A DNA stretch of 40,161 bases from an uncultured bacterium (GTDB lineage: Bacteria > UBP6 > UBA1177 > JAKLFG01), in NCBI GenBank assembly GCA_937871295.1, contig CALMRE010000085.1, positions 1-40,161 on the forward strand. Reading direction: 5' to 3'. The notes below the pieces were generated by a model. The model did not search any database, was not told where the DNA came from, and saw nothing but the letters and a program-made list of their open reading frames with translations. Made by a program: the position numbers and the translations under genes. Numbering within the stretch: the first letter of the stretch is position 1; every line of letters begins with the position of its first letter. Of this stretch, positions 5,338 through 40,161 are shown one piece after another.

Positions 5338-5444
5338 TCGCGCATCCGGGAAAAAAGGTTGGAGCGGCCGCGTCCGTACTCCGAAAGTTCATAGAGGAGG
5401 AGCGCCCCGGTCACCGTGAACAGAATGTAGTCGAATGCTTCCAT
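5313..5444 (-). CDS. small single-pass membrane protein
   Basis: A 43-residue protein: one hydrophobic segment (about residues 5-20, ILFTVTGALLLYEL) followed by a basic C-terminus ending in PKKK, implying a cytoplasmic tail. The ATG at 5444 has GGAGGGG just upstream; an in-frame ATG 51 bases earlier is less likely because it would lie upstream of the predicted transcription start region. It overlaps the following hypothetical gene by 25 bases. Family unknown. Confidence 0.55.
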   Translation of the reverse strand: MEAFDYILFTVTGALLLYELSEYGRGRSNLFSRMREWFFPKKK

Positions 5445-5466
5445 CGTCCCCTCCGTGAGGTGGTGA

Positions 5467-5495
5467 AGCATATACCGGTGAACGGAAAAAACCAA
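5467..5495 (-). promoter_or_regulatory. promoter of the small minus-strand operon
   Basis: Read on the minus strand, TTGGTT (5490-5495), 17 bases, then TATGCT (5467-5472). Transcription would start about 17 bases before the start codon at 5444. Confidence 0.5.
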
Positions 5496-5543
5496 GAAGA
5501 AAAACGGCGGGAGAAAAAAAGCAGCCCCGTACTGTTTCTTTCC

Positions 5544-5572
5544 TTGCGGAGGGTTGCTCGATATGTTATAAA
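5544..5572 (+). promoter_or_regulatory. promoter of the DJ-1/TPP enzyme operon
   Basis: TTGCGG (5544-5549), 17 bases, then TATAAA (5567-5572). Transcription would start near 5579. No other strong promoter was seen before 15446, so it may serve the whole plus-strand run. Confidence 0.5.
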
Positions 5573-5622
5573 CTACCCCATTGTGGCTTGAGCGGCGTTT
5601 TATTCATTCAGAGAGGCCTGTC

Positions 5623-6444
5623 ATGAAAAAGATCCTTGCGGTATTATCGAATCACGGGTACTGGGGCGTCGAACTGACCGGCCCGATGGTGAAACTCGAG
5701 AAGGCGGGGTACGAACTGGTGTTCGTCACGCCGAAAGGAGAACGGCCTATCGCCCTGCCGCCAAGCTATGACACCAACTATTACGACCCTCCGCTCGGGG
5801 TGAAGGTGACCACTCCCTTCGACGCCGAGCAGGTGAAGGGGATCATGGACAGCCCGAAGCTCGATAAGCCGATCAACCTTTCCGAATGGATGCCGGAGCG
5901 TCCCTATTTCAGCGCGCCCGATTTCCTCCGGGCGTGGGAGAAGTATTTCGCGACGCTCAAGGTGCGGCGCGAAGAGTTGGCGCAGTACGAGGGTATTCTG
6001 CTGGTCGGCGGTAGCGGTCCGATACTCGACATGGTCAACAATCAGCGGGTACACGATCTCATCCTCGCCTTCCATGCGATGGACCGGCCGATCGCGGCGA
6101 TCTGTTACGGCGTCGCCTGTCTGGTCTTCGCCCGCGACTTCAACGAGCGCCAGCCGATCATCTGCGGCAAACATGTGACCGGCCACTGCATCGAGTACGA
6201 TTATCACGACGGCACCGGGTTCGTCGGGACCGATCTCAACATGGGGCCGCCGCCCTATGTGCTGGAATATCTCCTGCGCGACGCCGTCGGTAAGCACGGC
6301 CAGTTCCACGGGAATTTCGGCAAACCGACCTCGGTCGTCGTCGACTATCCCTTTATCACCGCCCGGTCGTTGCAGTGTTCGCACGAGTTCGGCGACAAAT
6401 TCGTCGAGGTGCTGACAAAGGGGTTGAAACGGTATGGCTGGTAA
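5623..6444 (+). CDS. DJ-1/PfpI family protein (Hsp31-like)
   Basis: A 273-residue class I glutamine-amidotransferase-fold protein of the DJ-1/PfpI superfamily. The nucleophile elbow is AICYGVACL, with Cys161. The N-terminal strand MKKILAVLSNHGYWGVELTGPM, with Glu in GVEL, matches the conserved acidic residue that tunes the Cys. Family members include the chaperone/glyoxalase III Hsp31 and isocyanide hydratases; long N- and mid-regions resemble the Hsp31 branch. I chose ATG 5623 with AGAGAGG upstream; an in-frame TTG at 5581 would lie at the predicted transcription start. It overlaps the next gene by 11 bases. With a second DJ-1 protein two genes on, it probably acts in the same aldehyde or keto-acid pathway (inference). 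Confidence 0.82.
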   Translation: MKKILAVLSNHGYWGVELTGPMVKLEKAGYELVFVTPKGERPIALPPSYDTNYYDPPLGVKVTTPFDAEQVKGIMDSPKLDKPINLSEWMPERPYFSAPDFLRAWEKYFATLKVRREELAQYEGILLVGGSGPILDMVNNQRVHDLILAFHAMDRPIAAICYGVACLVFARDFNERQPIICGKHVTGHCIEYDYHDGTGFVGTDLNMGPPPYVLEYLLRDAVGKHGQFHGNFGKPTSVVVDYPFITARSLQCSHEFGDKFVEVLTKGLKRYGW

Positions 6445-8140
6445 AACGGGACGCTTCAAGATACTCGAACAGTTCATCGCCGACGGGATGACCGTCATGT
6501 TCGGCAATCCGGGGACGGTGGAACAGGGGTTCCTCGACGCGCTCGACGCCTATCCGGCGATGCGCTATATCCTCACCCTGCAGGAGAGCGTGGCGGTACT
6601 TGCCGCCGACGGCCATGCGCGGGCGACCCGTCGGCCGACCCTCGTGCAGTTGCACAGCGCCCCCGGCATCGGCAACGCGGTCGGCGCGCTGTATCAGGCG
6701 AAACGGGGACATGCGCCACTGGTAGTGATCGGCGGCGATGCGGGACTGCGCTACATGAATATGGATGCCCAGATGGCGGGCGACCTTGTGGCGATGATGG
6801 CGCCGGTGACCAAGTACGCGACCATGGTGCTTGACCCCCGGTCGCTCCTCCGAACCCTGCGGCGCGCGATCAAGATAGCCGCCACCCCGCCGATGGGGCC
6901 GGTTTATGTCTGTCTCCCGGCCGATGTGCTCGATCAGATCAACGATGAGTCGGTGTTCCCCTCCTGCGTCCCCTCGACCCGCGTACTGCCCCCGGCCGAA
7001 ACGCTGGAGCGGATTGCGGCGGGACTGCGCGGCGCGGTGCGGCCGGTCCTTTTCATCGGGGACGGGGTGGCCGTGTCTGAAGCGCAGGCCGAAACGGCGC
7101 GTATCGCAGAACTGCTTGGCGCGGCGGTGTACGGGGTCGATGTCGGCGATGTCCACATGGACACGACCCATCCCTGCTACCACGGGACGACCGGCCACAT
7201 GTTCGGGGCGCAGAGCCTGCCGATAACACGCGGCGGCGACGCGAACCTCATCGTCGGCACCTACATGGTCCCCGAGGTCTTTCCCGAACTCGGTGATATC
7301 TTCGCCCCCGACGCGGCGGTGTTCCATATCGATCTGAACGGCTACGAGATAGCGAAGAACCACCGGGTCGATCTCGGCGTCACGGCCGATCCGAAGCTCA
7401 CCCTCGCGGCGCTCGCCGATCTGCTCGAAAAGACGATGACCCCGGCCCGGAAGGGTGCCGCGGCCGAGCGGTTGAAACGATTCGCCGCCGAAAAACGGGA
7501 GCGGGCGGAAAAGGAGAAGGCGGAGGACCGGCGGCATGACGGCGCGTCCCCGCTCCACATGGCGCAGTTCATGCGGATACTCGCCGGGAAACTGCCGCCC
7601 GACGCGGTCATCTTCGACGAGGCGCTGACCTCCGGGCCCGAGGTGACCCGTTACGCACCGCCCCGGACGGCCGGAAACTATTTCGTCACCCGCGGCGGCT
7701 CGCTCGGGGTCGGTTTCCCCGGGGCTCTCGGGGTCAAGGTCGCCGACCCGGCGCGGACCGTCATCGGTTTCTCGGGCGACGGCGGCTCGATGTACACGAT
7801 ACAGGCGCTCTGGAGCGCCGCCCGGCATAAGATGGGGGCGAAGTTCGTCGTCTGCAACAACGGCTCTTACCGGCTTCTGCAACTCAATATCCTGCAATAC
7901 TGGCGCGAAAACGGCGTTGAACCGCACGATATGCCGCTCTCGTTCGACCTGTCGGAACCGCGCATCGATTTTGCGGCGCTGGCCCGGTCGCTCGGGGTCG
8001 CGGCGGTGCGGGTGGAAAAGGAGGCCGATATTGCGCCGGCGGTCGAACAAATGCTTGCCGATGACCGGCCCTTCCTCATCGATCTGCTGCTGGAGGGGAA
8101 CATCCATCCCGAACGGATCGGCGTGAAATGCGGACAATGA
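6434..8140 (+). CDS. thiamine-diphosphate enzyme, benzoylformate-decarboxylase-like
   Basis: A 568-residue enzyme with the three domains of the pyruvate-oxidase/decarboxylase family. The N-terminal Pyr domain has the activating Glu51 (LTLQESVAV) and a His74 motif LHSAPGIGNA, which matches the active-site His stretch of benzoylformate decarboxylase; GNPGTVEQGFL is also typical of that group. The C-terminal PP domain has the ThDP/Mg motif GDGGSMYTIQALW ending in NN about 30 residues later. It probably decarboxylates or condenses a 2-keto acid, but the substrate cannot be read from the sequence; acetolactate-synthase-like or oxalyl-CoA-decarboxylase-like alternatives fit less well. It overlaps the DJ-1 gene upstream and is followed 20 bases later by another DJ-1 gene. 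Confidence 0.82.
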   Translation: MAGKTGRFKILEQFIADGMTVMFGNPGTVEQGFLDALDAYPAMRYILTLQESVAVLAADGHARATRRPTLVQLHSAPGIGNAVGALYQAKRGHAPLVVIGGDAGLRYMNMDAQMAGDLVAMMAPVTKYATMVLDPRSLLRTLRRAIKIAATPPMGPVYVCLPADVLDQINDESVFPSCVPSTRVLPPAETLERIAAGLRGAVRPVLFIGDGVAVSEAQAETARIAELLGAAVYGVDVGDVHMDTTHPCYHGTTGHMFGAQSLPITRGGDANLIVGTYMVPEVFPELGDIFAPDAAVFHIDLNGYEIAKNHRVDLGVTADPKLTLAALADLLEKTMTPARKGAAAERLKRFAAEKRERAEKEKAEDRRHDGASPLHMAQFMRILAGKLPPDAVIFDEALTSGPEVTRYAPPRTAGNYFVTRGGSLGVGFPGALGVKVADPARTVIGFSGDGGSMYTIQALWSAARHKMGAKFVVCNNGSYRLLQLNILQYWRENGVEPHDMPLSFDLSEPRIDFAALARSLGVAAVRVEKEADIAPAVEQMLADDRPFLIDLLLEGNIHPERIGVKCGQ

Positions 8141-8160
8141 GAAGATAACGGAGGCGCGCA

Positions 8161-8757
8161 ATGGACCTTACGGGGAAAAAGATAGCGGTCCTGTTCGAGA
8201 GGGACTACTACGAGAACGAGATATTCTACTATCAGCACCGGTTCGCCGAGGAGGGGATGGAGCTCCATTTCCTGACCCGCCTGTGGGGCCAGCCGTCGCT
8301 CACCTTCGTCGGCCATGAATACCAGATACCGATGGAGTGCCGCGAAAGTTTTGAAGGGATGTCGGACGACGAACTGCGCGGTTACAGCGCCATCATCGTC
8401 CCCGCCGGGATAGTGGCCGACCGGCTCCGCTATACCGAGGACATCGCGAAACTGCCGCCGGCGTGCGCGTTCCTGCGGCGCGCCTTCGCCGAAAAGACGA
8501 TCGTCAAGGGGATCATCTGTCACGGAATGTGGCTGATGGCGCCCATCGCCGAACTGGTGAAGGGGCGGCGCGCGGTGGTCCACAACAATCTGCTGGGCGA
8601 CGCGAAGGCTTACGGCATCGAGTATGTGAACGAGGATGTGGTGGTGGACGGAGACCTCGTGACGGCACGCACCGGCGGCCACTGTCATCTTTTCGCCCGC
8701 CGGATCATAGAACTATTGAAAGCGGGCGGCGTGAACGCGCCCGACAACCGGAGGTGA
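8161..8757 (+). CDS. second DJ-1/PfpI family protein
   Basis: A 198-residue protein of the short PfpI type. The nucleophile elbow is GIICHGMWLM with Cys120 followed by His, the usual PfpI Cys-His pair. An acidic residue in LFERDYYENEIFYY matches the conserved N-terminal Glu. VTARTGGHCHLFARRI sits where PfpI proteins have SRTPDDL, an altered form with extra His and Cys. Possible activities in this family are protease/deglycase-like, isonitrile hydratase or glyoxalase. It begins 20 bases after the TPP enzyme, behind a GGAGG-type site, and ends 2 bases before the EthD gene. It is only distantly related to the DJ-1 protein at 5623. Confidence 0.82.
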   Translation: MDLTGKKIAVLFERDYYENEIFYYQHRFAEEGMELHFLTRLWGQPSLTFVGHEYQIPMECRESFEGMSDDELRGYSAIIVPAGIVADRLRYTEDIAKLPPACAFLRRAFAEKTIVKGIICHGMWLMAPIAELVKGRRAVVHNNLLGDAKAYGIEYVNEDVVVDGDLVTARTGGHCHLFARRIIELLKAGGVNAPDNRR

Positions 8758-8759
8758 CC

Positions 8760-9461
8760 ATGATACATCAATTTATTTTCGCAGCGCCCAAGCCGGGGAT
8801 GACCGAGGCGGAGTTCCAGAAGTATTGGCTCGAGGTCCACGCCGTCCGGTACGCGAGCAAGATCAGGCAGATCAAGAAATATCTTATCGACACGCGCATC
8901 GATTTCAGCGGTGATCGCGGCGCCGACCCGATGTTCGGCGGCATCGCCGAGATATGGATCAACAACGACAAGGAACAGCTGGAATCGCTCCAGTCGCCCG
9001 AGTTCCTCGAAGGGGCGCGGCTCGACGAACCCAAGTGGGCCGCCTTCTGGAAGACGCTGGTGCTCGACACCGACGCCCATGTCCTGCTTGAGGGGCCGCC
9101 GCCCGTGAAAGAGCCGACCGGCGTGAAGACGGTCGTCCTGCTGCGGCGCAAGGAGGGACTGACGGTCGAGGCGTTCCGGAAGTACGCGCTGGAGAAGCAC
9201 GCGAAACTCAACCTCGCGGTCCCCGGTCTGCGACGGCTGGTCTACGGTACTACGCGGGACGGCTGGTACGGCTTCGGCGAACCACGTTTCGACATGGTCT
9301 CCCAGTTCTGGTTCGACGACCTGCCGTCGCTGGAAAAGGCGATGGCCTCGCCCGAGATGGCGGCATGCCGGGAGGACGACAAGAACTTCGTGGAGATGAG
9401 ATATCTCTTCGTCATGGCGGTGAAGGAACACTGGGTCATCGGCCCGCAGCCGCGCGACTGA
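8760..9461 (+). CDS. tandem EthD-domain protein
   Basis: A 233-residue protein built of two ferredoxin-like (dimeric alpha/beta barrel) EthD domains. The first (about 1-100) has the segment KPGMTEAEFQKYWLEVHA; the second (about 118-233) has KEGLTVEAFRKYALEKHA. Both carry the xxWxxxHA/xxxxxKHA helix typical of EthD (PF07110). These domains occur in small enzymes or accessory proteins of ether, aromatic and polyketide metabolism, so a substrate-binding or isomerising role fits with the TPP enzyme. The ATG at 8760 follows GGAGGTG closely and sits 2 bases after the previous stop. Specific function unknown. Confidence 0.78.
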   Translation: MIHQFIFAAPKPGMTEAEFQKYWLEVHAVRYASKIRQIKKYLIDTRIDFSGDRGADPMFGGIAEIWINNDKEQLESLQSPEFLEGARLDEPKWAAFWKTLVLDTDAHVLLEGPPPVKEPTGVKTVVLLRRKEGLTVEAFRKYALEKHAKLNLAVPGLRRLVYGTTRDGWYGFGEPRFDMVSQFWFDDLPSLEKAMASPEMAACREDDKNFVEMRYLFVMAVKEHWVIGPQPRD

Positions 9462-9476
9462 AGGAGGAGAAAAGAA

Positions 9477-10529
9477 ATGAACGCCAAGGATCGCGACCTG
9501 TTGACCGCCGTAGAGAATAACGACCTGTCGAATGCGGAACGGCTCTTGAACGAGGGCGCATCGCCCGATGCGGCCGATCCGCACACCGGCCTTTCGGTGC
9601 TGATGCTGGCCGCCTGTCGAGGCTGGACCGAACTATCGCGGCTCCTTATCGACCGCGGCGCCGATATCCACCGGGTCGACCGTTTCGCGGGTGCAACGGC
9701 GCTCCACAAGGCTTGTCAGGCCGGCTCGCTGCCGATCGTGCGGATGCTCGTCGAGGCGGGCGCCTTCATCGATCAGCAACTCCCGACCACCGGCCACTCA
9801 CCGCTCCTCATGGCCGTCTGGTTCAAGTGGGTCGATATTGTGGAATACCTGCTCGACAACGGCGCCACCCTCAACCTTCACACCCACTTCGGTTTCTCGC
9901 TCGACGATCAACTGAATTTCTCCCTTAGGGTAACGCAGAAGGGGCGCGAATCGCTTCTGCGCATCGTTGATGCGGTGAAACGCCGCCGCGCCGCCGATGA
10001 GAAGTCGGTAACGGAGCAAAAACTCATGGCGGCGACGGTCGCCGGCGATGTCGCGGGGGTAAAGGCGGCGCTCGCCGCCGGTGCGCCGGTCGACGAGCGT
10101 TTTCCTCGCATCAATGTCTTCAATGATGCTCACACGCCGCTGTTGGTCGCCGCCCGCGAGGGGCATACCGAGATCGTCAGGCTACTTCTCGACGCGGGAG
10201 CCGATGTCAACGCGGTCGAACCGACTTTCGGGGCCGTGCCGCTCCACAAGGCGGCCTACAACGGTCATGTCGACATCCTGCGAATGCTGGCGGCGCGTCC
10301 CGGCGTCGCTCTCGATGTGCCCGGGCCATCCAACGGGTACACTCCGCTGCACGATGCGATCTGGCTCGGGTATGTCGATTGTGCCGAGGTGCTGGTCTCG
10401 GCGGGGGCGCGGATCGATCTGCCGGCGCATGACGGTAAGACGCCGCTCGACCTCTCATACGCCACATTCGGCGCCGATCATCCGTTGACGGCGTTGCTGG
10501 TATCGAGAACTAAGAATTCAAGGGCATAG
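9477..10529 (+). CDS. ankyrin-repeat protein
   Basis: A 350-residue protein made mostly of ankyrin repeats, in two blocks: about residues 1-150 and 180-345. Typical units are TGLSVLMLAACRGWTELSRL, GATALHKACQAGSLPIVRML and TPLLVAAREGHTEIVRLLLD. The repeats are separated by a charged linker (about 145-180). There is no signal peptide, so it is probably cytoplasmic and mediates protein-protein contacts. The start follows AAGGAGGAGAAAAGAA. It sits in the middle of the plus-strand run, 15 bases after the EthD gene, so it may scaffold one of the two enzyme groups on either side (inference). Confidence 0.9.
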   Translation: MNAKDRDLLTAVENNDLSNAERLLNEGASPDAADPHTGLSVLMLAACRGWTELSRLLIDRGADIHRVDRFAGATALHKACQAGSLPIVRMLVEAGAFIDQQLPTTGHSPLLMAVWFKWVDIVEYLLDNGATLNLHTHFGFSLDDQLNFSLRVTQKGRESLLRIVDAVKRRRAADEKSVTEQKLMAATVAGDVAGVKAALAAGAPVDERFPRINVFNDAHTPLLVAAREGHTEIVRLLLDAGADVNAVEPTFGAVPLHKAAYNGHVDILRMLAARPGVALDVPGPSNGYTPLHDAIWLGYVDCAEVLVSAGARIDLPAHDGKTPLDLSYATFGADHPLTALLVSRTKNSRA

Positions 10530-10552
10530 GACACGACGAAAAGGAGAGCGCC

Positions 10553-10885
10553 ATGTTCAGAAAGATCATTGACGATTACCACACGACGCTGTTCCTCGGC
10601 GTCATGCTGCTGCTGCTCGGGATCATCGAAAGTGCGCGGAACTTTCTGGTTTCCGTACTGGGCATATCTATAACATCGCATGTCGTCCTGTTGAGCCTCG
10701 GCGTCTTCAATGTTGTGCTGGCGATCGCCTTCTTCATCATGGGCGCCCGCAATATCGAGGCGGCCGAAGAGATCGCGCGCGCCCCTCGTCCCGCCGGGGA
10801 CGATCGGACGCTCGCTGACCGGATCGTCGAACTTGAGAAAAGGCTTTCCCGGCTGGAGCGGGGAGCGGGGGACGGCGCAGCATGA
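10553..10885 (+). CDS. small two-helix membrane protein, paralogue A
   Basis: A 110-residue protein with two hydrophobic helices (about residues 12-30 and 42-63), then a charged tail with heptad-like Leu (DRIVELEKRLSRLERG). It resembles the 98-residue protein at 15150: YHTTLFLGVMLLLLGIIE compares with YTTLTTALILLVSGIFE, and the second helix ends in GARNIEAAEE versus GLEGIEKVEE. Its stop overlaps the glgX start as ATGA, so the two are translationally coupled. Family unknown to me; the layout suggests a membrane anchor or dimeriser. Confidence 0.8.
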   Translation: MFRKIIDDYHTTLFLGVMLLLLGIIESARNFLVSVLGISITSHVVLLSLGVFNVVLAIAFFIMGARNIEAAEEIARAPRPAGDDRTLADRIVELEKRLSRLERGAGDGAA

Positions 10886-12972
10886 AGAAACATCGTTATG
10901 AGATAGAGCCCGGCCGGCCGTACCCGCTGGGGGCGACGGTCGACGATACCGGGGTGAACTTCTCGCTCTTCTCCGAGAACGCCACGGCGATAGAACTGCT
11001 GCTCTTCTCTTCCTCGAAAGAGGATAGTCCTTTTCTGACGGTGCCTTTCGATCCCGCGATCAATCATACGAGCCACTTCTGGCATCTCTATATCCGCGGT
11101 CTGAAGGCGGGCGTCCAGTACGCCTACCGCATTTCCGGTCCCTGCGAGATCGGCGAAGGACACCGGTTCAACCCGAACAAGGTGATCCTCGATCCCTACG
11201 CGAAAGGGACCTGCAGTCATCGCTGGGAGCGCGGCGCGGCGTGTCATGACGGCGACAATATTTCCTCGGCGATGCGCGGCGTGGTGATAGATCCGCGCGG
11301 ATTCGATTGGGGCGCGACCCGACCGCCGCGGACGCCGATGAAGGATTCGATCATCTACGAGATGCATGTCGCCGGCTTCACGCGCAACCCGAACTCGCGG
11401 GTCGACAAGCGCGGAAAATTCCTCGGCGCCATCGAGAAGATACCGTATCTCAAGGAACTCGGGGTGACCGCGGTGGAACTCCTGCCGGTCTTCCAGTTCG
11501 ACGACCGCGAGGTCCTGCGCACCCTGCCCGACGGCACCGAACTCAGGAATTACTGGGGGTACAGCACGGTCGGCTATTTTTCCCCCGAGAACAGTTACTG
11601 CGTTCAGGCCGCGGAGGGCGAACACCTCAACGAGTTCCGCGAGATGGTCAAGGCCTTTCACGCGGCGGGGATAGAGGTGATCCTTGATGTGGTGTACAAC
11701 CACACCGACGAAGGGAACCATCAGGGACCGGTCTATTCTTTCAAAGGGATCGATAACCGCGTCTACTATCATCTGTCCCCGAGCGATCGCCGCTACTACA
11801 TGGACTACACCGGCTGCGGCAATACCGTCAACTGCAATCATCCGGTGGTGCAGAAGATGATCATCGATTCACTCGCCTTCTGGGTGACCGAGATGCAGGT
11901 GGACGGGTTCCGCTTCGACGAAGGCTCCATCCTTTCGCGCGACGAAGAGGGGCGGCCGATGCGCTATGCGCCGGTGCTCTGGGCGATAGATCTCAAAGAA
12001 CGGTTCGCCGATACGAAACTCATCGCCGAGGCGTGGGACGCGGGCGGTCTCTACCAGATCGGGACCTTTCCCGGCTACCGATGGGCCGAATGGAACGGGC
12101 GGTTCCGCGACGATGTGCGCCGTTTCGTGAAGGGCGATCCGGGTGTCATCGGGGCGGTCGCTTCGCGGATAGCCGGGTCGAGCGATCTGTATCAGCACGA
12201 GCGCCACACACCGCTCAACTCGATAAATTTCATCGCCTGCCACGACGGCTTCACGATGTACGACCTCACGGCCTACAACGAGAAACACAATGAAGCGAAC
12301 GGCGAAGGGAGCCGCGACGGCATCGACGACAATCTGAGTTGGAATTCGGGCGCGGAGGGCGAAACCGACGATCCGGCGATACTGGCGTTCCGAAAACGGC
12401 GCGTCAGGAATTTCGCGGCGATCCTGCTGCTGTCGCAGGGGGTGCCGATGTTCCTCATGGGCGACGAGATGGGGAAAAGTCAGCGCGGGAACAACAACGC
12501 CTATTGTCAGGACAACGAACTGGCGTGGTTCGACTGGGGACTCGCCGAAAAGAACGCCGACCTGTTCCGATTCTTCAAACGGATGATCGCTTTCCGCAAA
12601 ATGAACGCCTCCCTGAGGCGCGGAACCTTCTTCGACGGCTCGGTGAATACCCGCGGACGCCGCGATATCGAATGGCACGGATGCCGTCTCGGAGCACCGG
12701 GCTGGAACGATCCCGCGTCGAAGGTACTCGCCTTCACGATGGGCGCCTTTACGCCGGGAGAGTCCGACCTTCATGTGATGATGAACATGGATCCGCAGCC
12801 GCTTTCTTTCGATATCCCGCCCGCCGCTTCCGGCAAGCGATGGTACCGTTTCGCCGACACCGCGCTGCCATCGCCCGACGACATCGCCGAGCCCGGGGAA
12901 GAGACGGCGGTCCTTGCGGGGCAACAGTATACGGTCGAACCCTACAGTGTCGTCATTTTGATAGAACGATAG
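10882..12972 (+). CDS. glgX: glycogen debranching enzyme (GlgX/isoamylase type)
   Basis: A 696-residue alpha-1,6-glucosidase of GH13 that hydrolyses branch points of glycogen or limit dextrins. An N-terminal CBM48-like domain (GRPYPLGATVDDTGVNFSLFS) precedes the (beta/alpha)8 barrel. Conserved regions are seen: DVVYNHT, the nucleophile Asp346 in GFRFDEGS, acid/base Glu383 in IAEAWD, and Asp455 in FIACHDGFT. MGDEMGKSQRGNNNAYCQDN is the usual GlgX substrate loop. It overlaps the upstream membrane-protein gene by 4 bases and is followed 9 bases on by the epimerase-STAS gene. No glycogen synthase or phosphorylase is in the window, so its carbohydrate partner is unclear. Confidence 0.95.
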   Translation: MKKHRYEIEPGRPYPLGATVDDTGVNFSLFSENATAIELLLFSSSKEDSPFLTVPFDPAINHTSHFWHLYIRGLKAGVQYAYRISGPCEIGEGHRFNPNKVILDPYAKGTCSHRWERGAACHDGDNISSAMRGVVIDPRGFDWGATRPPRTPMKDSIIYEMHVAGFTRNPNSRVDKRGKFLGAIEKIPYLKELGVTAVELLPVFQFDDREVLRTLPDGTELRNYWGYSTVGYFSPENSYCVQAAEGEHLNEFREMVKAFHAAGIEVILDVVYNHTDEGNHQGPVYSFKGIDNRVYYHLSPSDRRYYMDYTGCGNTVNCNHPVVQKMIIDSLAFWVTEMQVDGFRFDEGSILSRDEEGRPMRYAPVLWAIDLKERFADTKLIAEAWDAGGLYQIGTFPGYRWAEWNGRFRDDVRRFVKGDPGVIGAVASRIAGSSDLYQHERHTPLNSINFIACHDGFTMYDLTAYNEKHNEANGEGSRDGIDDNLSWNSGAEGETDDPAILAFRKRRVRNFAAILLLSQGVPMFLMGDEMGKSQRGNNNAYCQDNELAWFDWGLAEKNADLFRFFKRMIAFRKMNASLRRGTFFDGSVNTRGRRDIEWHGCRLGAPGWNDPASKVLAFTMGAFTPGESDLHVMMNMDPQPLSFDIPPAASGKRWYRFADTALPSPDDIAEPGEETAVLAGQQYTVEPYSVVILIER

Positions 12973-12981
12973 GAGGACAGC

Positions 12982-15153
12982 ATGGACACAAAGGCGCTCG
13001 GTTTCACTTTTTCCGATCTCATTCAGGGGTATGTGACGAATTTCGACTGGGACAAACAGAGCTTCGGTCTGCGGACCTCCGACGGCCGTGAATTTGCGGT
13101 GACGCTTACCGCGAACACCTATGCCGAAATGCTTCGGAACCTCGGCGAACCGTTTATCGATTGCACCGCGCAGATGAAGGATCTGCTCGGGCAGGATCGC
13201 TTTCTCTATGTGTACGGCGTCTTTTATCCCGAGAAGGAACTCTCCTTCGAGGCGAAGCATATCGTGTTCCTCGGTCGCAGCGAAGGGGAATTCCGTTTCG
13301 AGAAGCAGGATTGGTGGATCCGGCAGCTGCGGTGCCTGGGCGATTTCTATCTGAAGGCGCAGTTCGACAACGGCGCTCCCGATTTCAGCAAATACCGCAC
13401 GGAACTCAATCTGGAGGGGAGCAAGGACGGCAGTTTCCGACAGGAGACCGACACCATCAGCCGGCTGGTCTACGGCTTCGCTTCGGCGTTCCTGATGACG
13501 GGCGACGACCGCTATCTCGAAGCGGCCGAAGCGGGAACGCTCTATCTGCGGGAGCACCTGCGCAATGTCGACTCTTCGGAGGAGATCGCCTACTGGTATC
13601 ACGCCATCGACATCAACGGCGACCGCGAACGGAAAGTGTTCTCCAGCGAGTTCGGCGATGATATCGACGCGATACCGGCCTACGAACAGATCTACGCGCT
13701 TGCCGGCCCGACGCAGACCTATCGCGCCACCGGCGATCCGGCGATCCGCCGCGACATAGAGATGACGGTCAACCTTTTCGACAAATATTTCAGCGACCGC
13801 AAACGGGGCGGCTACTTCTCGCACATCGACCCTATCACCTTCGATCCCCGCGCCGAATCGCTCGGCAGGAACCGCGCCCGCAAGAACTGGAACAGCGTCG
13901 GCGATCACGCCCCGGCCTATCTCATCAACGCCTATCTCGCCACGGCGGACGAACGGTTGCGCCGGATGCTCGTCTACACCGCCGACACCATCGCGGAGCA
14001 TTTTCCGGACTACGAAAAAAGCCCCTTCGTGCAGGAGAAGTTCCACGAGGACTGGTCGCACGACACCTCGTGGGGCTGGCAGCAGAACCGCGGCGTGGTG
14101 GGCCACAACCTCAAGATCGCGTGGAACCTGACCCGCATCATGAGCCTGCCGGAACTCGAGAAGGAGAAGCTCGCGACCTACACCTCGTTCGCGGGGAAAA
14201 TAGCCGAACTCATGCCGCGTCACGGCGGCGACGCCCAACGCGGCGGCTGGTACGATGTGGTCGAGCGGACGCTTGACGAAGGTCAGAAATTCCACCGCTA
14301 TGCGTGGCACGACCGCAAGGCGTGGTGGCAGCAGGAGCAGGGGATACTCGCCTATCTCATCCTCGCCGGGACCGCGGGACGGCCCGAACACCTGAAACTC
14401 GCCCGCGAGTCGAGCGCCTTCTACAATGCGTGGTTCCTCGATCACGATTCGGGCGGCGTCTATTTCAATGTGCTCGCCAACGGACTTCCCTACCTTCTCG
14501 GCACCGAACGGTTCAAGGGAAGCCACAGCATGAGCGGCTATCACTCGTTCGAACTGGCCTATCTGGCGGCGGTCTACAGCAATCTCCTGATAACAAAACA
14601 ACATCTGGATCTCTATTTCAAGCCCTATCCGAACGGTTTCGCGGGCAACATCCTGCGCGTCGCTCCCGATATCCTTCCCGTCGGTTCGGTGAAGATAGAC
14701 AAGGTCTGGATCGACGGCAAGCCGTACGACGATTTCGACGCCGCGGCGCTGACGGTGAAACTGCCCGTCACGAATGATCGGGTCAAGGTGCAGGTCCGGC
14801 TCGCGCCCACTTCGTCGGTCGAACATTTCTGGATGACGGTCGACCGGGACGGCGACATCGCCCGGGTAACGCTGTCGGGCGAACTCGATCATCTGGCGGT
14901 ACACGGGTTCCGCAAGGCCTGCGCTGAGGTCGCGGCGAACAACCCGAAGAAGGTCGCCTTCGTCATGAAGGACCTGAAAAGCATGGTGCCCGATGGTGTC
15001 CGCACCATCATCTTCGAAAAACAGAAAATGGCGCTCGATTCGGACCTATACATCATCGGCGCCAACAAAGAGATACGCCAACTGTTCGATCGCGATGAAC
15101 TTTCGGAGGAGGTCGTTCTGCTCGACACCTACGACCGGAAGAAGATGCAATGA
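12982..15153 (+). CDS. AGE-family epimerase-like protein fused to STAS domain
   Basis: A 723-residue protein with three parts. Residues 1-110 form a beta-rich N-domain (GYVTNFDWDKQSFGLRTSDG). About 115-540 is an (alpha/alpha)6 barrel of the N-acylglucosamine/cellobiose 2-epimerase family, with GDDRYLEAAEAG, VVGHNLKIAWNL (probable catalytic His), AWWQQEQGILAYL and GYHSFELAYLA. A C-terminal STAS domain occupies about 620-715 (DIARVTLSGELDHLAVHGFR, KVAFVMKDLKSM). The usual phosphorylatable DSSG is replaced by a PDG sequence, so a switch by phosphorylation looks unlikely. STAS domains usually belong to anti-sigma antagonists and sulfate transporters; here it may bind the small membrane proteins (inference). 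It starts behind TAGGAGG and overlaps the next gene as ATGA. Confidence 0.8.
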   Translation: MDTKALGFTFSDLIQGYVTNFDWDKQSFGLRTSDGREFAVTLTANTYAEMLRNLGEPFIDCTAQMKDLLGQDRFLYVYGVFYPEKELSFEAKHIVFLGRSEGEFRFEKQDWWIRQLRCLGDFYLKAQFDNGAPDFSKYRTELNLEGSKDGSFRQETDTISRLVYGFASAFLMTGDDRYLEAAEAGTLYLREHLRNVDSSEEIAYWYHAIDINGDRERKVFSSEFGDDIDAIPAYEQIYALAGPTQTYRATGDPAIRRDIEMTVNLFDKYFSDRKRGGYFSHIDPITFDPRAESLGRNRARKNWNSVGDHAPAYLINAYLATADERLRRMLVYTADTIAEHFPDYEKSPFVQEKFHEDWSHDTSWGWQQNRGVVGHNLKIAWNLTRIMSLPELEKEKLATYTSFAGKIAELMPRHGGDAQRGGWYDVVERTLDEGQKFHRYAWHDRKAWWQQEQGILAYLILAGTAGRPEHLKLARESSAFYNAWFLDHDSGGVYFNVLANGLPYLLGTERFKGSHSMSGYHSFELAYLAAVYSNLLITKQHLDLYFKPYPNGFAGNILRVAPDILPVGSVKIDKVWIDGKPYDDFDAAALTVKLPVTNDRVKVQVRLAPTSSVEHFWMTVDRDGDIARVTLSGELDHLAVHGFRKACAEVAANNPKKVAFVMKDLKSMVPDGVRTIIFEKQKMALDSDLYIIGANKEIRQLFDRDELSEEVVLLDTYDRKKMQ

Positions 15154-15463: not shown

Positions 15464-18400
15464 CTATTCGTGCCGCACGCAACGGGCGTCGTATTTGTCG
15501 GCCGGGTTCTTAACGCTGTTGGTGCCGTCGGCGGCGAGCACGGTCCAGAAGGAACCGCTGTACTTCGTGGAGGCGGTGTCGCTCCAGTAACGACTCGTCG
15601 CGCCGCTGAAGATCGCGTCATCGAGTTTATCGCCGCTCCGTTCGAGATCGAGGAGGAACAGCAATTCCTTCATCGACGGCAGGTACCAGTCGTAGTGACC
15701 GCCGACGGTCAGATTGCGGCAGTATTCGGCGGCGGCGGCGCGGTCGACGGAGGTCTTGCGCAGTTTCTGCCACATCAGTCCGGTCGCGATGTCGGAAACG
15801 GTGTCGTCGCCGTTGTCGGTGAACTGCCGAAGCGGCGTCGCGGTCCCCTTGACGCAGAGGAACTGTATCTTCCCGTCGGTTGCGTTGGAGGCCGGGTAGT
15901 CGCGGAGATAGCCGCTTTCGATGGTGTAGGTGTAGATGCTGCCCGTTCCCGGTATCGGCGTATCGGACCAGAGTTTGCCCTCGCTCTGCATGCCGCCGAA
16001 GATGCTCACGGTCGGCGTTTGATCGTATGCCCCCAGCGTGAACAGTTCGTGGATCGTCGGCAGGCGCCAGCCGTTCTCGCCGCCCAGCGCGGTGTTCGCG
16101 CAGTAACTCCGGGCGTCGGCAACTTTACTGCGCAGGCCGGGCATGGTCGCGTACCACTTCAGGCCGGTGTTCAGATCGACGACGCTTTTTCCGTCGGCGC
16201 TTTTTTCCAGATAGAGATCATGCGACCGATCGTACACGGACAGCGTCTCGCCGGGGAGCACCGCATCGAGCGTCGCGTAGCTGGTTACGGTGCGGGTCAC
16301 CTCGTCGCGCTGTCCGTCGCCGTCCTCGACGCTGAGGGTGATGTCGTAACTTCCCTCGGCCGACAGATGGGTGCGGAAGATATCGTTGTCGTCGCGGTAG
16401 TCCCAGCGGTCGCCGTCGGGGCGCAGGAGGCTCCAGTCGCGGAACTTGATGCCGTAGTCGCTCGAAGAAGCGTCGTAAAAACGCATATAGGTCGTCGCGG
16501 TCAGCGGAAAACGGGGGGAGTAGTAGAACGAGGGCTCGATCACGCTCTGGAACGAGCCGCTCTGCCAGATCCGTTTGCGGATGAGTTCCACCGTATATTT
16601 CTTCTCGACCGAGAAGAGTTCCACATTGACGAACAGCACCTGTACCGATAGCTCCAGTTCGAGTCCGACCGAGCCGTCGATGACGAAGTCGAGCGTCTGC
16701 CACGGGTCCTCCGCGGTGTCGCCGAGATACTGCAGATAGGGCGAAAGTTCGACGAACGGTCCGACGAAATCGTAGATGAGCCCGGTCACCCGTATCCCCA
16801 TCCCGACATCGAGCGATCCGCTCCCCTCCAGCACCTCGGGCGTACGGTACTCCTTGGTGGCGTTGCCCACCTTGTACCAGTCGCTTCCCTCGCGGCCCCG
16901 TTTGTACTTGACCCCCGCCTCGAGGCCCAGTTCGAAGTCGACCAGTTTCACCGTCGTCTCGATCGAACCGGAGGCGTTGACCGTCACCTCGAGTTGCGGC
17001 GTCACCCACACCGGCACCGCGCCGATGAGGAATTTGATCCGCGGATATTTCTTCTCGAACAGGGTGCAGGAGGCGTCGACCTCGCCCGAGATCTCGGTCG
17101 TTATCTGGCTGTAGATGTTCTTGCTGTAGACGAATTTGAACCGTTCGAGCGTCGTCTCCTCTATCTGCATCCCCATGTCGAGGTAGGCGTTCATCCCGAG
17201 CGAACCGGTGAACCGGACCGAGCCGGTGCCGCTCACCGAACAGCGGTCGTTCGCCGCCCCCACCGGAACGCCGTTCTCTATCGCGAGGTCGATGTCGAGG
17301 TTGAGTCCGTAGAGTTTCGTCCCGCTCCGCAGGACCGCGCCGCCGAGCATCCGCTGGAGTTCGCTTTCGTTGAGGCCGTCGCCCCGTTCGAGTTTTTCGG
17401 GTATGGCGTCGCCCGGCTTCAGGCCGTAATTCGCGAAGACGCGGCATCGGAGATCGTCGTACCCGATGACCCGGACGCCCGGCGAGAGGAGCGTTTGCGG
17501 CTCGTCGCCGGAGGCCAACTCTTCGCGGTGTTCGACCGTCGCGCTCTCGATCATCTCGAGTTGTCCCTCTTCGGTGGTCAGCGTACAGGGCTGCGCGGCG
17601 CCGGGACAATCCTGCGACAAGACCTTGCGCACCGTGCCGTCGGGGAAGATATCCGACGGCTCGAAGATGAGCACCCGGCCGACATGGTCGTCGGCGAGCG
17701 TCGTTTCGTCGAGCGTGATGACGCCGGTGCCGCCATCGAAAGCGACCGGCGTAAGGGAATCCTCAAGATCGGCCAACCCCAACGGATTGTAGCTCAACAT
17801 ATTGGGGGCGGAGGTCGGCATGATCACCGCGAACTTGTCGTGGTCCACCGCCACATCGCTCACCTTGTGGACGACATCTTCGACCGATATCGTGAAGGTG
17901 TAGCGCTTGCCGTTGTAGGTCAGGCCGAGCGTGGCGGCGCCGCCCTCGATGCCCAGCAGTTTGCCGTCGGAGGTGACATCGAACTTCAGTTTGTCGTCGC
18001 TGAACCAGTCGGCTATCGACTGCGGATCGAGCGCGATCTCGTCGACATCGATATCGAGCACATCGATGAGTTGCCCGATGGGAATACCGCCGATGGTGAT
18101 GGCGTTGTTGACGATGTCGGCGATGTTGATCCCCGACAGATCAATGCCGTTGAGCATGAACCCTTCGCTGATGACGCCGGCGAGCGGGAGATCGGGATCG
18201 TTCAGGCACGATTCCTTGATATGGTTGTCGGCGTCGATGCATTCTGCGGTGATGAGGTCCTTGTAGGCAAAATGGTATATCTCGCCCGGCAGGATGACCA
18301 GTTTGCCCGGCATCGCCACTTCGGGCAGCGCCGGTTCTTCCAGCAGACTGCCGCCGGTGTCGTCGGTCAGAAGGGCATCGTTGTCGGGAAACAGTTCGTC

Positions 18401-18661
18401 GGTCGGCAGGCCGTCGCCTTCCGGCAATAACTCGTCGTCGGTCGCGAAGTCGGCATCGGCCGCATCTTCGTCCGCAAGGGTCGGCTCCACGCATCTATCG
18501 TTCAGGCAAACCAAAGCCCCCTCACAGGTGTCGTTCGGATAGCAGGGTTGATCGATTCCGCCCATTTTCCGCACATCGTTCGTATCGTCGAGTTTCTTTT
18601 CGGTGCAGGCGACCATAAGCAACAGCACGCCGACGGCGAAGAGCCCGATAAAATTTTTCAT
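15464..18661 (-). CDS. giant lipoprotein with C-terminal Lcl/DUF1566 repeats
   Basis: A 1065-residue protein with a lipobox ending at Cys19 (LLMVACTEKK). An acidic tether follows, rich in Asp and Glu (about residues 55-105, such as DEDAADADFATDDELLPEGD). The large middle is beta-rich and extracellular-looking. A short PKD-like segment (SYDITLSVEDGDGQRDEVTR) precedes two tandem Lcl/DUF1566 units: DLNTGLKWYATM with NGWRLPTIHELFTL, and DIATGLMWQKL with YDWYLPSMKELLFLL. The final part includes SRYWSDT and DARCVRHE, typical of that domain. The start has GGGAGG upstream and a good promoter. It is probably a surface or periplasmic structural or binding protein. Specific role unknown. Confidence 0.85.
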   Translation of the reverse strand: MKNFIGLFAVGVLLLMVACTEKKLDDTNDVRKMGGIDQPCYPNDTCEGALVCLNDRCVEPTLADEDAADADFATDDELLPEGDGLPTDELFPDNDALLTDDTGGSLLEEPALPEVAMPGKLVILPGEIYHFAYKDLITAECIDADNHIKESCLNDPDLPLAGVISEGFMLNGIDLSGINIADIVNNAITIGGIPIGQLIDVLDIDVDEIALDPQSIADWFSDDKLKFDVTSDGKLLGIEGGAATLGLTYNGKRYTFTISVEDVVHKVSDVAVDHDKFAVIMPTSAPNMLSYNPLGLADLEDSLTPVAFDGGTGVITLDETTLADDHVGRVLIFEPSDIFPDGTVRKVLSQDCPGAAQPCTLTTEEGQLEMIESATVEHREELASGDEPQTLLSPGVRVIGYDDLRCRVFANYGLKPGDAIPEKLERGDGLNESELQRMLGGAVLRSGTKLYGLNLDIDLAIENGVPVGAANDRCSVSGTGSVRFTGSLGMNAYLDMGMQIEETTLERFKFVYSKNIYSQITTEISGEVDASCTLFEKKYPRIKFLIGAVPVWVTPQLEVTVNASGSIETTVKLVDFELGLEAGVKYKRGREGSDWYKVGNATKEYRTPEVLEGSGSLDVGMGIRVTGLIYDFVGPFVELSPYLQYLGDTAEDPWQTLDFVIDGSVGLELELSVQVLFVNVELFSVEKKYTVELIRKRIWQSGSFQSVIEPSFYYSPRFPLTATTYMRFYDASSSDYGIKFRDWSLLRPDGDRWDYRDDNDIFRTHLSAEGSYDITLSVEDGDGQRDEVTRTVTSYATLDAVLPGETLSVYDRSHDLYLEKSADGKSVVDLNTGLKWYATMPGLRSKVADARSYCANTALGGENGWRLPTIHELFTLGAYDQTPTVSIFGGMQSEGKLWSDTPIPGTGSIYTYTIESGYLRDYPASNATDGKIQFLCVKGTATPLRQFTDNGDDTVSDIATGLMWQKLRKTSVDRAAAAEYCRNLTVGGHYDWYLPSMKELLFLLDLERSGDKLDDAIFSGATSRYWSDTASTKYSGSFWTVLAADGTNSVKNPADKYDARCVRHE

Positions 18662-38182: not shown

Positions 38183-40161
38183 ATGACAGCAAAAAGATGG
38201 TCACTCGTTTTACTTGCGGGAATACTCGCTTTTTTTGCCGCCTGCTCCTCGAACGAGGCGGGCGGCATCCGGCTCCACTACTCCTGGGTTGACGCGGAAG
38301 GAAACGACATCACACCGCCCGATATGACGCTCCTTTTCGCGTGGGGCGAACTGAAATACGGCACCGAGACCAAGACCACCGAGGCGGTCTGGATGGGTGA
38401 CGAATCGGCGGTCATGCGGTTCGACAACCTCCCGTATGGACCTAAGATGACCCTGACCATCACGATGCGCCTCGCCGAGGCGAAAGGCGACACCGACATC
38501 ATCAACGAAAATGACGCCCCCGAGGCACGACCCGATAATGTGGCCTACTACTGCACCTCGCAGGAATTCAGTCTGTCCCGCGGTAAAGTGACCGATGTCG
38601 ACAACGGCTGTGTCATGCAGAAAGGACCCGCGCTCGGCGATGATGGAAGCGGAGTGCCCGCCATGAAACTGTTCTATCGCCGTACCGCGGCCGATGCTCC
38701 GGTGGAGATCACCGCGACATCGAATGTGACACCCCTTTCGACAATAGAGATACATGTCGATCCGCGAAATGCCGACAATATCGTCGTTGCCAATGACCCT
38801 GCCTTTTCTCTGGGCAAAAAGATACTTGCCGTTGCCGACCTACAAAAAGATGCGGAGAACAAGGTCATTGTTCCGGCATGGGACCTGAACGCCGATCTTT
38901 TCGCTGGGTCTGAGACGCCGCAGGACGGCATCCGTCTCGTCTACGCGAAACTCAAACAGACCATCGGCTTCGAATCGCCCGCCGCCAACGCGAAGGTGGT
39001 GCTCGACACCACGCCGCCGCAGGTGACGAGCGGCTACATGACCCGCGAGCCGATGTTCGCCCAATCGGTGCGGTCGGTGGACGATGTCACCGAGTATCAT
39101 TTCTCGGCCTACGACCCCTACGACGATGCGGCGGAGGTGACCGGCGCGCTCGTCCTCTACACCGACGAGCCGGTGAGCGCGGTCCACGACGCGATAGTGC
39201 GCGAGACGACGACGCTGGTCGAACTGCCGCTTGCCGACCTCGGGCTCACCGAGGTGACGGCGGCCGACAACCGGATATCGGTGACAGGGATGATAACTGA
39301 CGATGTCGCGCTCGACGGCACCTACGAGGTGCTTGTCTCGCTTGAGGATGCGGTGGGGAACTTCGCCGAAGGGTTCGAAGGCTATACGAAGGTTCCGAAT
39401 CTCCTTCTGGTCATTCGCAACACGCCCCCTGACAGTGGCGGGATAGATATGTCAAATGTGCTGTATGTGCGCAAACCGTGGGGGACCGACGACACCGGGA
39501 TGGTGCCGCGGATGTCGCTCGCGGGAACGGCGATAACGGCCGATACATCCATTTCTTCGGTCATCGCCTATGCGCCGTCGGGACTGATGCTGGGGCAGGC
39601 CGATCTCGACGGTGGTTCGTTCGATATCGCATCGTTGACCGGCGGCGATCTGCCGGAGATATACCTGAATCCGGTCACCTTCTCGGGCGCAAAACTCGCG
39701 ATGCCGGGACTCAAGGTCACCGAGGTCGAGTGGCACGCAACGATGGGAGGAAAGGTACCGGGGAGTGCGATGGAGAATCCTCATACATTTTCAGAGAACG
39801 GTATTTTTAATGAAACATTGGAACAAGAACGATTATATTTGCAGCAGTCCCTGTCTGCTGGGCGATCAAACATAAAAACCATAGGAAGAGCAAATTGGGA
39901 CAAATGGACAGGAAGCATTATTAAGCCGTCAGACCAGCCAGACCGCACCAGCCCGATGACCTACGACAGCATCCGGGGTAAAGTAGTGTTGTTTGGGGGA
40001 GCTACCGGTTCAGGCTTCAACGACGAGACATGGGAATGGGACGGCACGAACTGGACCCAGATGAACCCCGCCAATAAGCCGTCGGCACGAAGCAGTCACG
40101 CGATGACCTACGACAGCGCCCGTGGGAAGGTGGTCTTGTTCGGGGGATATAAGGGATCAGT
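38183..40161 (+). CDS. large lipoprotein with Kelch-like repeats (partial, 3' end cut)
   Basis: At least 659 residues, running off the window with no stop. The lipobox ends at Cys21 (AFFAACSSNE). The first 500 residues are beta-rich, with a few Cys, and look like extracellular immunoglobulin-like modules. From about residue 590 come Kelch-type repeats: MTYDSIRGKVVLFGG at 39956 and MTYDSARGKVVLFGG at 40103, 147 bases (49 residues) apart, with the linker TWEWDGTNWTQ between. A stretch of lower G+C (about 39790-39940) precedes the repeats. It is probably a surface adhesin or sugar-binding lipoprotein; beta-propeller closure would need more repeats beyond the edge. I chose ATG 38183; ATG 38178 stops after two codons. 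Confidence 0.85.
   Translation, partial: MTAKRWSLVLLAGILAFFAACSSNEAGGIRLHYSWVDAEGNDITPPDMTLLFAWGELKYGTETKTTEAVWMGDESAVMRFDNLPYGPKMTLTITMRLAEAKGDTDIINENDAPEARPDNVAYYCTSQEFSLSRGKVTDVDNGCVMQKGPALGDDGSGVPAMKLFYRRTAADAPVEITATSNVTPLSTIEIHVDPRNADNIVVANDPAFSLGKKILAVADLQKDAENKVIVPAWDLNADLFAGSETPQDGIRLVYAKLKQTIGFESPAANAKVVLDTTPPQVTSGYMTREPMFAQSVRSVDDVTEYHFSAYDPYDDAAEVTGALVLYTDEPVSAVHDAIVRETTTLVELPLADLGLTEVTAADNRISVTGMITDDVALDGTYEVLVSLEDAVGNFAEGFEGYTKVPNLLLVIRNTPPDSGGIDMSNVLYVRKPWGTDDTGMVPRMSLAGTAITADTSISSVIAYAPSGLMLGQADLDGGSFDIASLTGGDLPEIYLNPVTFSGAKLAMPGLKVTEVEWHATMGGKVPGSAMENPHTFSENGIFNETLEQERLYLQQSLSAGRSNIKTIGRANWDKWTGSIIKPSDQPDRTSPMTYDSIRGKVVLFGGATGSGFNDETWEWDGTNWTQMNPANKPSARSSHAMTYDSARGKVVLFGGYKGS
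39956..40161 (+). repeat. Kelch-like tandem coding repeat, 147-base period
   Basis: The block starting ATGACCTACGACAGC recurs at 39956 and 40103 and encodes near-identical segments. The second copy is cut by the window edge. Confidence 0.8.

Follow-up and report, generated by a model that had tools for sequence, protein, structure and literature searches.

Since 1994, the icfG operon of one cyanobacterium has been linked with the control of inorganic carbon and glucose, and we know of no agreed role for its non-regulatory genes; Slr1854, general stress protein 18, we take to be a PfpI-type protein. In Synechocystis, the operon (slr1852-1862) encodes an AGE protein, two STAS proteins, GlgX, the phosphatase IcfG and the kinase Slr1861 (PMC12329169; PMC8670252), the annotations being general stress protein 18 for Slr1854 (PMC3726282) and carboxymuconolactone decarboxylase for Slr1853 (PMC3479031), and in mutants of the operon growth is affected on glucose and low carbon (PMC12329169). 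Here we consider a stretch of 40,161 nt from an uncultured bacterium (contig CALMRE010000085.1; hereafter the window), in which a preliminary description had singled out four genes as a set: two DJ-1/PfpI proteins (DJ1A and DJ1B), a thiamine-diphosphate enzyme between them (TPP) and an EthD-domain protein (EthD). We believe that these genes probably make up the enzyme arm of an island that is akin to the icfG operon and spread by horizontal transfer, with a proposed working in carbon control. The anatomy of this island, an icfG-related set of glycogen genes joined to an arm of carbonyl enzymes, is well supported, and its chemistry is put forward as a proposal. Namely, GlgX, an AGE protein and a PfpI protein share one gene run in the window, and STAS stands beside AGE by fusion with it, these being the features by which we recognise an icfG-type set.

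Modules, probable transfer and gene run of the island

The island comprises eight genes, of which the four reported ones are only a part (Table 1), and two related genomes divide it into modules. In the one from the same genus (G001), the sequences flanking window positions 5455 and 18756 sit about 52 nt apart and the island is absent. In the one from another genus of the same family (G002), DJ1B, the gene of the 110-aa protein, GlgX and AGE-STAS are kept at 77-91% protein identity, with about 90 nt in place of window 5522-8160 (DJ1A-TPP) and about 112 nt in place of 8732-10525 (EthD-ankyrin). Because G002 keeps the core without these two blocks and G001 is without the island, DJ1B is, as judged from such comparisons, a core gene, while DJ1A-TPP form one module and EthD, with or without the ankyrin gene, another. 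In the window, DJ1A-TPP sit between the leader and DJ1B, and a similar leader stands straight before DJ1B in G002, which fits either a gain of the pair between the two or its loss in G002. The idea that the four genes form one pathway as a unit was rejected: the conservation check across genomes finds them apart, the sister genus having DJ1B without the other three and EthD occurring in only 13 loci.

Would the island be native to its lineage? The TPP gene turned up in none of the other 40 genomes that were sampled, and among the sampled lineage genomes AGE occurs only in G002; on these counts a native origin was rejected. YidC, whose gene adjoins the island, shares 91% identity with the protein of G001 and 36-38% with that of another family of the phylum, whereas DJ1A and TPP are 65-79% identical in other phyla, and this contrast, together with carriage on plasmids, points to horizontal transfer. 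A misassembled or foreign contig is unlikely, given that the adjoining yidC is single-copy and so close to its counterpart in the same genus. In the TPP tree, the window was not placed in any well-supported clade, and we name no donor. As a separate observation, the genome of the same genus contains, between yidC and the empty island site, about ten tandem-like stretches, each 120-210 nt long, that match the end of the window (39954-40161; L102, 9360-10935).

The preliminary description held that the four genes are present, co-directional and closely set, and with this the open reading frames and Pfam families agree. The spacings from DJ1A through TPP and DJ1B to EthD are -11, +20 and +2 nt, and all matches lie above the curated cut-offs: ThiJ_like (1e-14) and DJ-1_PfpI (8e-11) in DJ1A, the N, M and C domains (2e-24, 9e-19 and 3e-30) in TPP, DJ-1_PfpI (4e-16) in DJ1B, and EthD in two stretches (8e-22). 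The EthD protein is indeed double, as had been said, with 77.4 bits in two stretches on TIGR02118 (cut-off 30.5). A single transcript, proposed earlier from the overlaps and short gaps, is plausible, but its reported end at 9461 was too short: the run continues in the same direction as far as 15153, its successive genes being spaced at +15, +23, -4 and +9 nt, and the transcript would reach from DJ1A to AGE-STAS. GlgX scores 737.8 bits on TIGR02100 (cut-off 640.9), and the STAS domain of AGE-STAS matches PF01740 at 5.8e-6. For DJ1A, the ATG at 5623 was taken as the start; the listed open reading frame begins earlier, with a TTG at 5581. Downstream of AGE-STAS lies a 1065-aa open reading frame with Lcl_C domains (15464-18661, minus strand), for which blastn gave no match at the homologous sites of G001 and G002.

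Table 1. Features of the island in the window.
Feature	Positions	Strand	Description
Leader	5440..5622	+	First ~135 nt like the sequence preceding DJ1B in sister genus G002
DJ1A	5623..6444	+	273-aa protein of the DJ-1 superfamily, Hsp31-like; Glu17, Cys161 and His188 invariant; Tyr, not His, after Cys
TPP	6434..8140	+	568-aa thiamine-diphosphate enzyme; Glu51, His74 and GDGG...NN cofactor motif conserved; benzoylformate decarboxylase His281 absent
DJ1B	8161..8757	+	198-aa DJ-1 protein, PfpI-like; Cys-His (ICHG) conserved; island core gene
EthD	8760..9461	+	233-aa double EthD-domain protein; accessory
ANK	9477..10529	+	350-aa ankyrin-repeat protein; accessory; homologues 49-71% identical in four island loci
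Small protein	10553..10885	+	110 aa; 77% identical in sister genus; no family match; apparently membrane-spanning, judged by eye
GlgX	10882..12972	+	Glycogen debranching enzyme; exceeds TIGR02100 cut-off
AGE-STAS	12982..15153	+	Epimerase-like protein of the AGE family; STAS domain at its C terminus

Distribution among genomes and plasmids

When one genome per species was searched with DJ1A, 80 loci emerged, with identities of 62-79%. They belong to Bacteroidota, Pseudomonadota, Chlorobiota, Nitrospinota, Myxococcota, Elusimicrobiota, Schekmaniibacteriota, Thermodesulfobacteriota, Acidobacteriota, Actinomycetota, Nitrospirota and Ignavibacteriota, to which plasmids join Cyanobacteriota and Deinococcota; many of these loci are metagenome bins, and individual phylum assignments may be wrong. 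TPP adjoins DJ1A on the same strand in 80 of the 88 loci that hold DJ1A, with exactly the overlap seen in the window in 49, a recurrence because of which the grouping is not a matter of chance. DJ1B is present in 58 examined loci (on the same strand in 57), whereas EthD (at 35% identity or more) and the ankyrin protein occur in 13 and 6, respectively, the window included. An all-against-all comparison adds further members to the island cluster, namely GlgX, AGE, STAS, an anti-sigma kinase, SnoaL/NTF2, VOC, GMC, metallo-beta-lactamase-fold and xanthine-dehydrogenase-like proteins and an HpcH aldolase, some of these names having been read off the sequence without a family search.

The tie between the pair and the glycogen genes is likewise close. 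Among 346 genomes of Bacteroidota, to which the Dyadobacter locus belongs, AGE was found in 13 and DJ1A in 12, all 12 lying among the 13, and the thirteenth AGE match spans only residues 551-722; the hypergeometric chance of such an overlap is 3e-21, a figure that makes the link look stronger than it is, since related genomes are not independent. Of the 12 named genomes with DJ1A, 11 carry AGE. In the plasmid collection, DJ1A, TPP, DJ1B and AGE are carried by the identical 14 records, from Streptomyces (eight), Nostoc (three), Runella, Gemmobacter and Deinococcus (one each). On one Streptomyces plasmid the order is EthD, DJ1A, TPP, DJ1B, AGE, STAS, GlgX, STAS, anti-sigma factor, SpoIIE phosphatase and MinD/ParA, followed by glucan genes, and in a Dyadobacter genome it is DJ1A, TPP, GMC, three SnoaL-type genes, DJ1B, VOC, AGE, STAS, GlgX, STAS and kinase. 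Three cyanobacterial plasmids hold DJ-1/PfpI, AGE and GlgX without DJ1A-TPP. In particular, a Gloeocapsopsis plasmid without the pair has, in a row, GlgX, AGE, a hypothetical gene, a carboxymuconolactone decarboxylase and DJ-1/PfpI. For the AGE proteins of cyanobacterial plasmids, identity is mostly 58-63% across the greater part of their length.

Several variants of the islands deserve mention in their own right. In Bacteroidota, L126, L127 and L128 have DJ1A, STAS, a PP2C-like protein, GlgX and AGE without TPP, and between AGE and DJ1A two large conserved open reading frames which, by eye, resemble a transporter-like HEAT protein and a secreted glucan-binding protein. A Runella locus has a glycogen synthase gene immediately upstream of DJ1A (L084, 1234-3090), and further loci of Bacteroidota hold related genes. 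Several islands contain a second, shorter paralogue of DJ1A with 30-36% identity (L049, 4356-5108; L059, 4172-4921; L068, 9427-10173; L069, 1691-2440). Finally, some copies are apparently broken: AGE has three stops in L112 (G048), and TPP has an internal stop in L015 (6846-8525) and lies in two pieces in L059 (6496-8137).

The enzymes, the switch and the readings weighed

In agreement with the preliminary description, both the AlphaFold model of TPP (mean predicted local distance difference test score, pLDDT, of 88) and profile searches give benzoylformate decarboxylases (BFDCs) as its nearest relatives, solved structures included. TPP has in common with the BFDC of P. putida (1BFD) and with PRK07092, the BFDC equivalog of NCBIfam, the three domains, the GDG...NN motif and the invariant Glu51 and His74, which correspond to BFDC Glu47 and His70. 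It is, however, only about 26% identical to 1BFD over the structure match, His281 is replaced by Val282, adjoining the invariant Glu281, and Leu109 by Gln113. With 292 bits on PRK07092, where the cut-off is 493, and without His281, the name benzoylformate decarboxylase was rejected. Because His281 is replaced and the pocket differs, aromatic chemistry, with benzoylformate as substrate, is unlikely, and the enzyme may rather act on a polar 2-oxo acid. In five loci (L010, L014, L016, L067 and L080), the usual place of TPP is taken by an aldolase of HpcH type together with an ankyrin protein, and a representative of this aldolase, from a locus that has both enzymes (L002), is nearest to 2-keto-3-deoxy-sugar-acid and 4-hydroxy-2-oxoheptanedioate aldolases. 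That one carbon-carbon lyase acting on 2-oxo acids takes the place of another supports a polar substrate without proving it.

The two DJ-1/PfpI proteins are distinct, as had been noted. The AlphaFold model of DJ1A (mean pLDDT 92) has a fold like Hsp31/REP24 (Foldseek E 1e-13 to 1e-10 against Hsp31/HchA and REP24-like proteins), and DJ1A shares with these proteins Glu17 and the nucleophile-elbow Cys161, the latter also a mark of glyoxalase III; both residues are invariant in the DJ1A family. It differs from them in being 14-24% identical, in carrying an invariant Tyr162 in place of the His that directly follows the Cys in DJ-1/HchA glyoxalases III, and in family-specific conserved motifs (TGHCIEYDYHDGTGF); on the HchA family of NCBIfam it reaches 27.7 bits (cut-off 365). 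DJ1B aligns over its whole length with PfpI and the deglycase PH1704, whose Cys-His (ICHG) elbow it shares; unlike these it lies in a glycogen island and scores below the cut-off of the PfpI subfamily TIGR01382 (70.4 against 139 bits). Because DJ1A has Cys-Tyr where DJ1B has Cys-His, the two are unlikely to be duplicates with one role.

As for regulation, complete islands hold the parts of a partner switch, whereas the window's version does not. A second STAS protein, an RsbW-like kinase and a PP2C phosphatase are present, whole or in part, in L005, L084, L085, L091 and L123, and none was recognised in the run 5623-15153, while in the window's genome HATPase_c_2 matches and a single weak SpoIIE match lie on other contigs. 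Since these three parts are not in the run, the window is, by its gene content, a reduced relative of the icfG-type operon and not a full member. At the acceptor site, the window's STAS domain reads MVPDGV and that of G002 MVPEGV, against MASAGL in a separate STAS protein, and other fusions of STAS with AGE vary at the position of the acceptor Ser.

How might such an island work? The core consists of DJ1B, GlgX, AGE and STAS; in many islands a second STAS protein, a PP2C/SpoIIE phosphatase and a kinase like RsbW are added. The accessory modules are DJ1A joined to TPP, or to the HpcH-type aldolase at the usual place of TPP, and EthD with or without ankyrin, accompanied in other islands by SnoaL/NTF2, VOC, GMC oxidoreductase, xanthine-dehydrogenase-like and metallo-beta-lactamase-fold genes. 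We propose that a signal of carbon or stress status would be read through the STAS switch, that glycogen would be opened by GlgX and the released sugar handled by the AGE protein, that a polar 2-oxo acid from this sugar would be split to an aldehyde by TPP or the aldolase, and that reactive oxo-aldehydes would be removed or converted by the two DJ-1 proteins. We infer the direction of flux and the substrates, and STAS may have a role, with icfG-like control, in the window's organism as well. A more specific form, which we consider rather doubtful, is that DJ1A-TPP (with the aldolase as alternative to TPP) form the unvarying catalytic centre of an undescribed route under control of the switch, leading from glycogen by way of a 2-oxo acid to one particular small carbonyl compound, plasmid-borne between phyla and serving as a storage or stress signal or as a protectant.

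Two further explanations start from the same proteins. The accessory arm might make a small secondary metabolite, with TPP, in the manner of scytonemin and HKA synthases, joining two 2-oxo acids to an acyloin or a hydroxy-keto acid, EthD, SnoaL, VOC and GMC proteins cyclising and oxidising the product, and the glycogen genes feeding carbon. Each island does hold several SnoaL/NTF2, EthD, muconolactone-isomerase-type and VOC proteins, the HKA synthases BbmA and CsmA are among the relatives of TPP, and on two Nostoc plasmids leader-peptide genes for natural-product precursors (NHLP, Nif11) are located within or close to the island, next to GMC oxidoreductases (L083, 13929-14645; L092, 15471-16131). 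We nevertheless judge this unlikely, in that BFDC-type decarboxylases outscore the HKA synthases by far, no polyketide synthase, non-ribosomal peptide synthetase or dedicated exporter was noted as a recurring island neighbour, and the accessory genes vary greatly while DJ1A-TPP stay constant. Somewhat unlikely, too, is a damage-control set without a single product, in which the DJ-1 proteins, TPP and the small barrel proteins would detoxify glyoxals and aldehydes from glycogen or sugar oxidation under stress. It would account for the nearness of the DJ1A fold to Hsp31/HchA and glyoxalase III proteins, for the differing aldehyde- and alcohol-handling partners of the islands (xanthine-dehydrogenase-like proteins, iron-containing alcohol dehydrogenases, aldo-keto reductases, GMC) and for the rise of the Slr1854 transcript under butanol (PMC3726282); a TPP decarboxylase, however, produces aldehydes and does not remove them, and DJ1A lacks the His beside the catalytic Cys of Hsp31-type glyoxalase III. 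A four-gene pathway to an aromatic aldehyde or acyloin, to which the kinship of TPP with BFDCs would lend itself, is highly improbable in view of its score, its changed pocket and the separation of the four genes in relatives.

That said, several points weigh against the icfG-related, carbon-controlled island that we favour. The substrates are predicted for every enzyme of the arm; orthology of the window's genes with slr1854-1857 is putative, being read from gene content and order; the second STAS protein, kinase and PP2C phosphatase of the icfG operon are missing nearby, and the window's STAS domain has Pro where separate island STAS proteins carry the phospho-acceptor Ser. What is more, DJ1A occurs without TPP or aldolase in some loci (L005, L028), and pairwise distances between island genes agree only partly (Mantel r 0.08 to 0.66), from which it follows that parts of the island have been exchanged.

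Comparison with the icfG operon

The preliminary description did not recognise the combination as a known pathway, and we likewise found no description of it in the literature and no paper describing the DJ1A-TPP arm. Relatives of the icfG gene set, met in twelve or more phyla and on several plasmids and having DJ1A-TPP nearly invariant, offer a comparative handle on the role of the icfG operon itself. Dyadobacter, Runella, Streptomyces and Deinococcus are tractable hosts in which islands could be studied, and three uncharacterised, strongly conserved protein families become assayable.

By published annotation, the operon of Synechocystis PCC 6803 brings together PfpI, AGE, STAS and GlgX, and the window holds the same set, with the difference that its STAS is fused to AGE and that DJ1A, TPP, EthD and the ankyrin protein are added. 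In other words, the icfG-type gene set was known, and what is new is an uncharacterised pair, DJ1A-TPP, added to glycogen-debranching genes on plasmids and in bacteria of twelve or more phyla.

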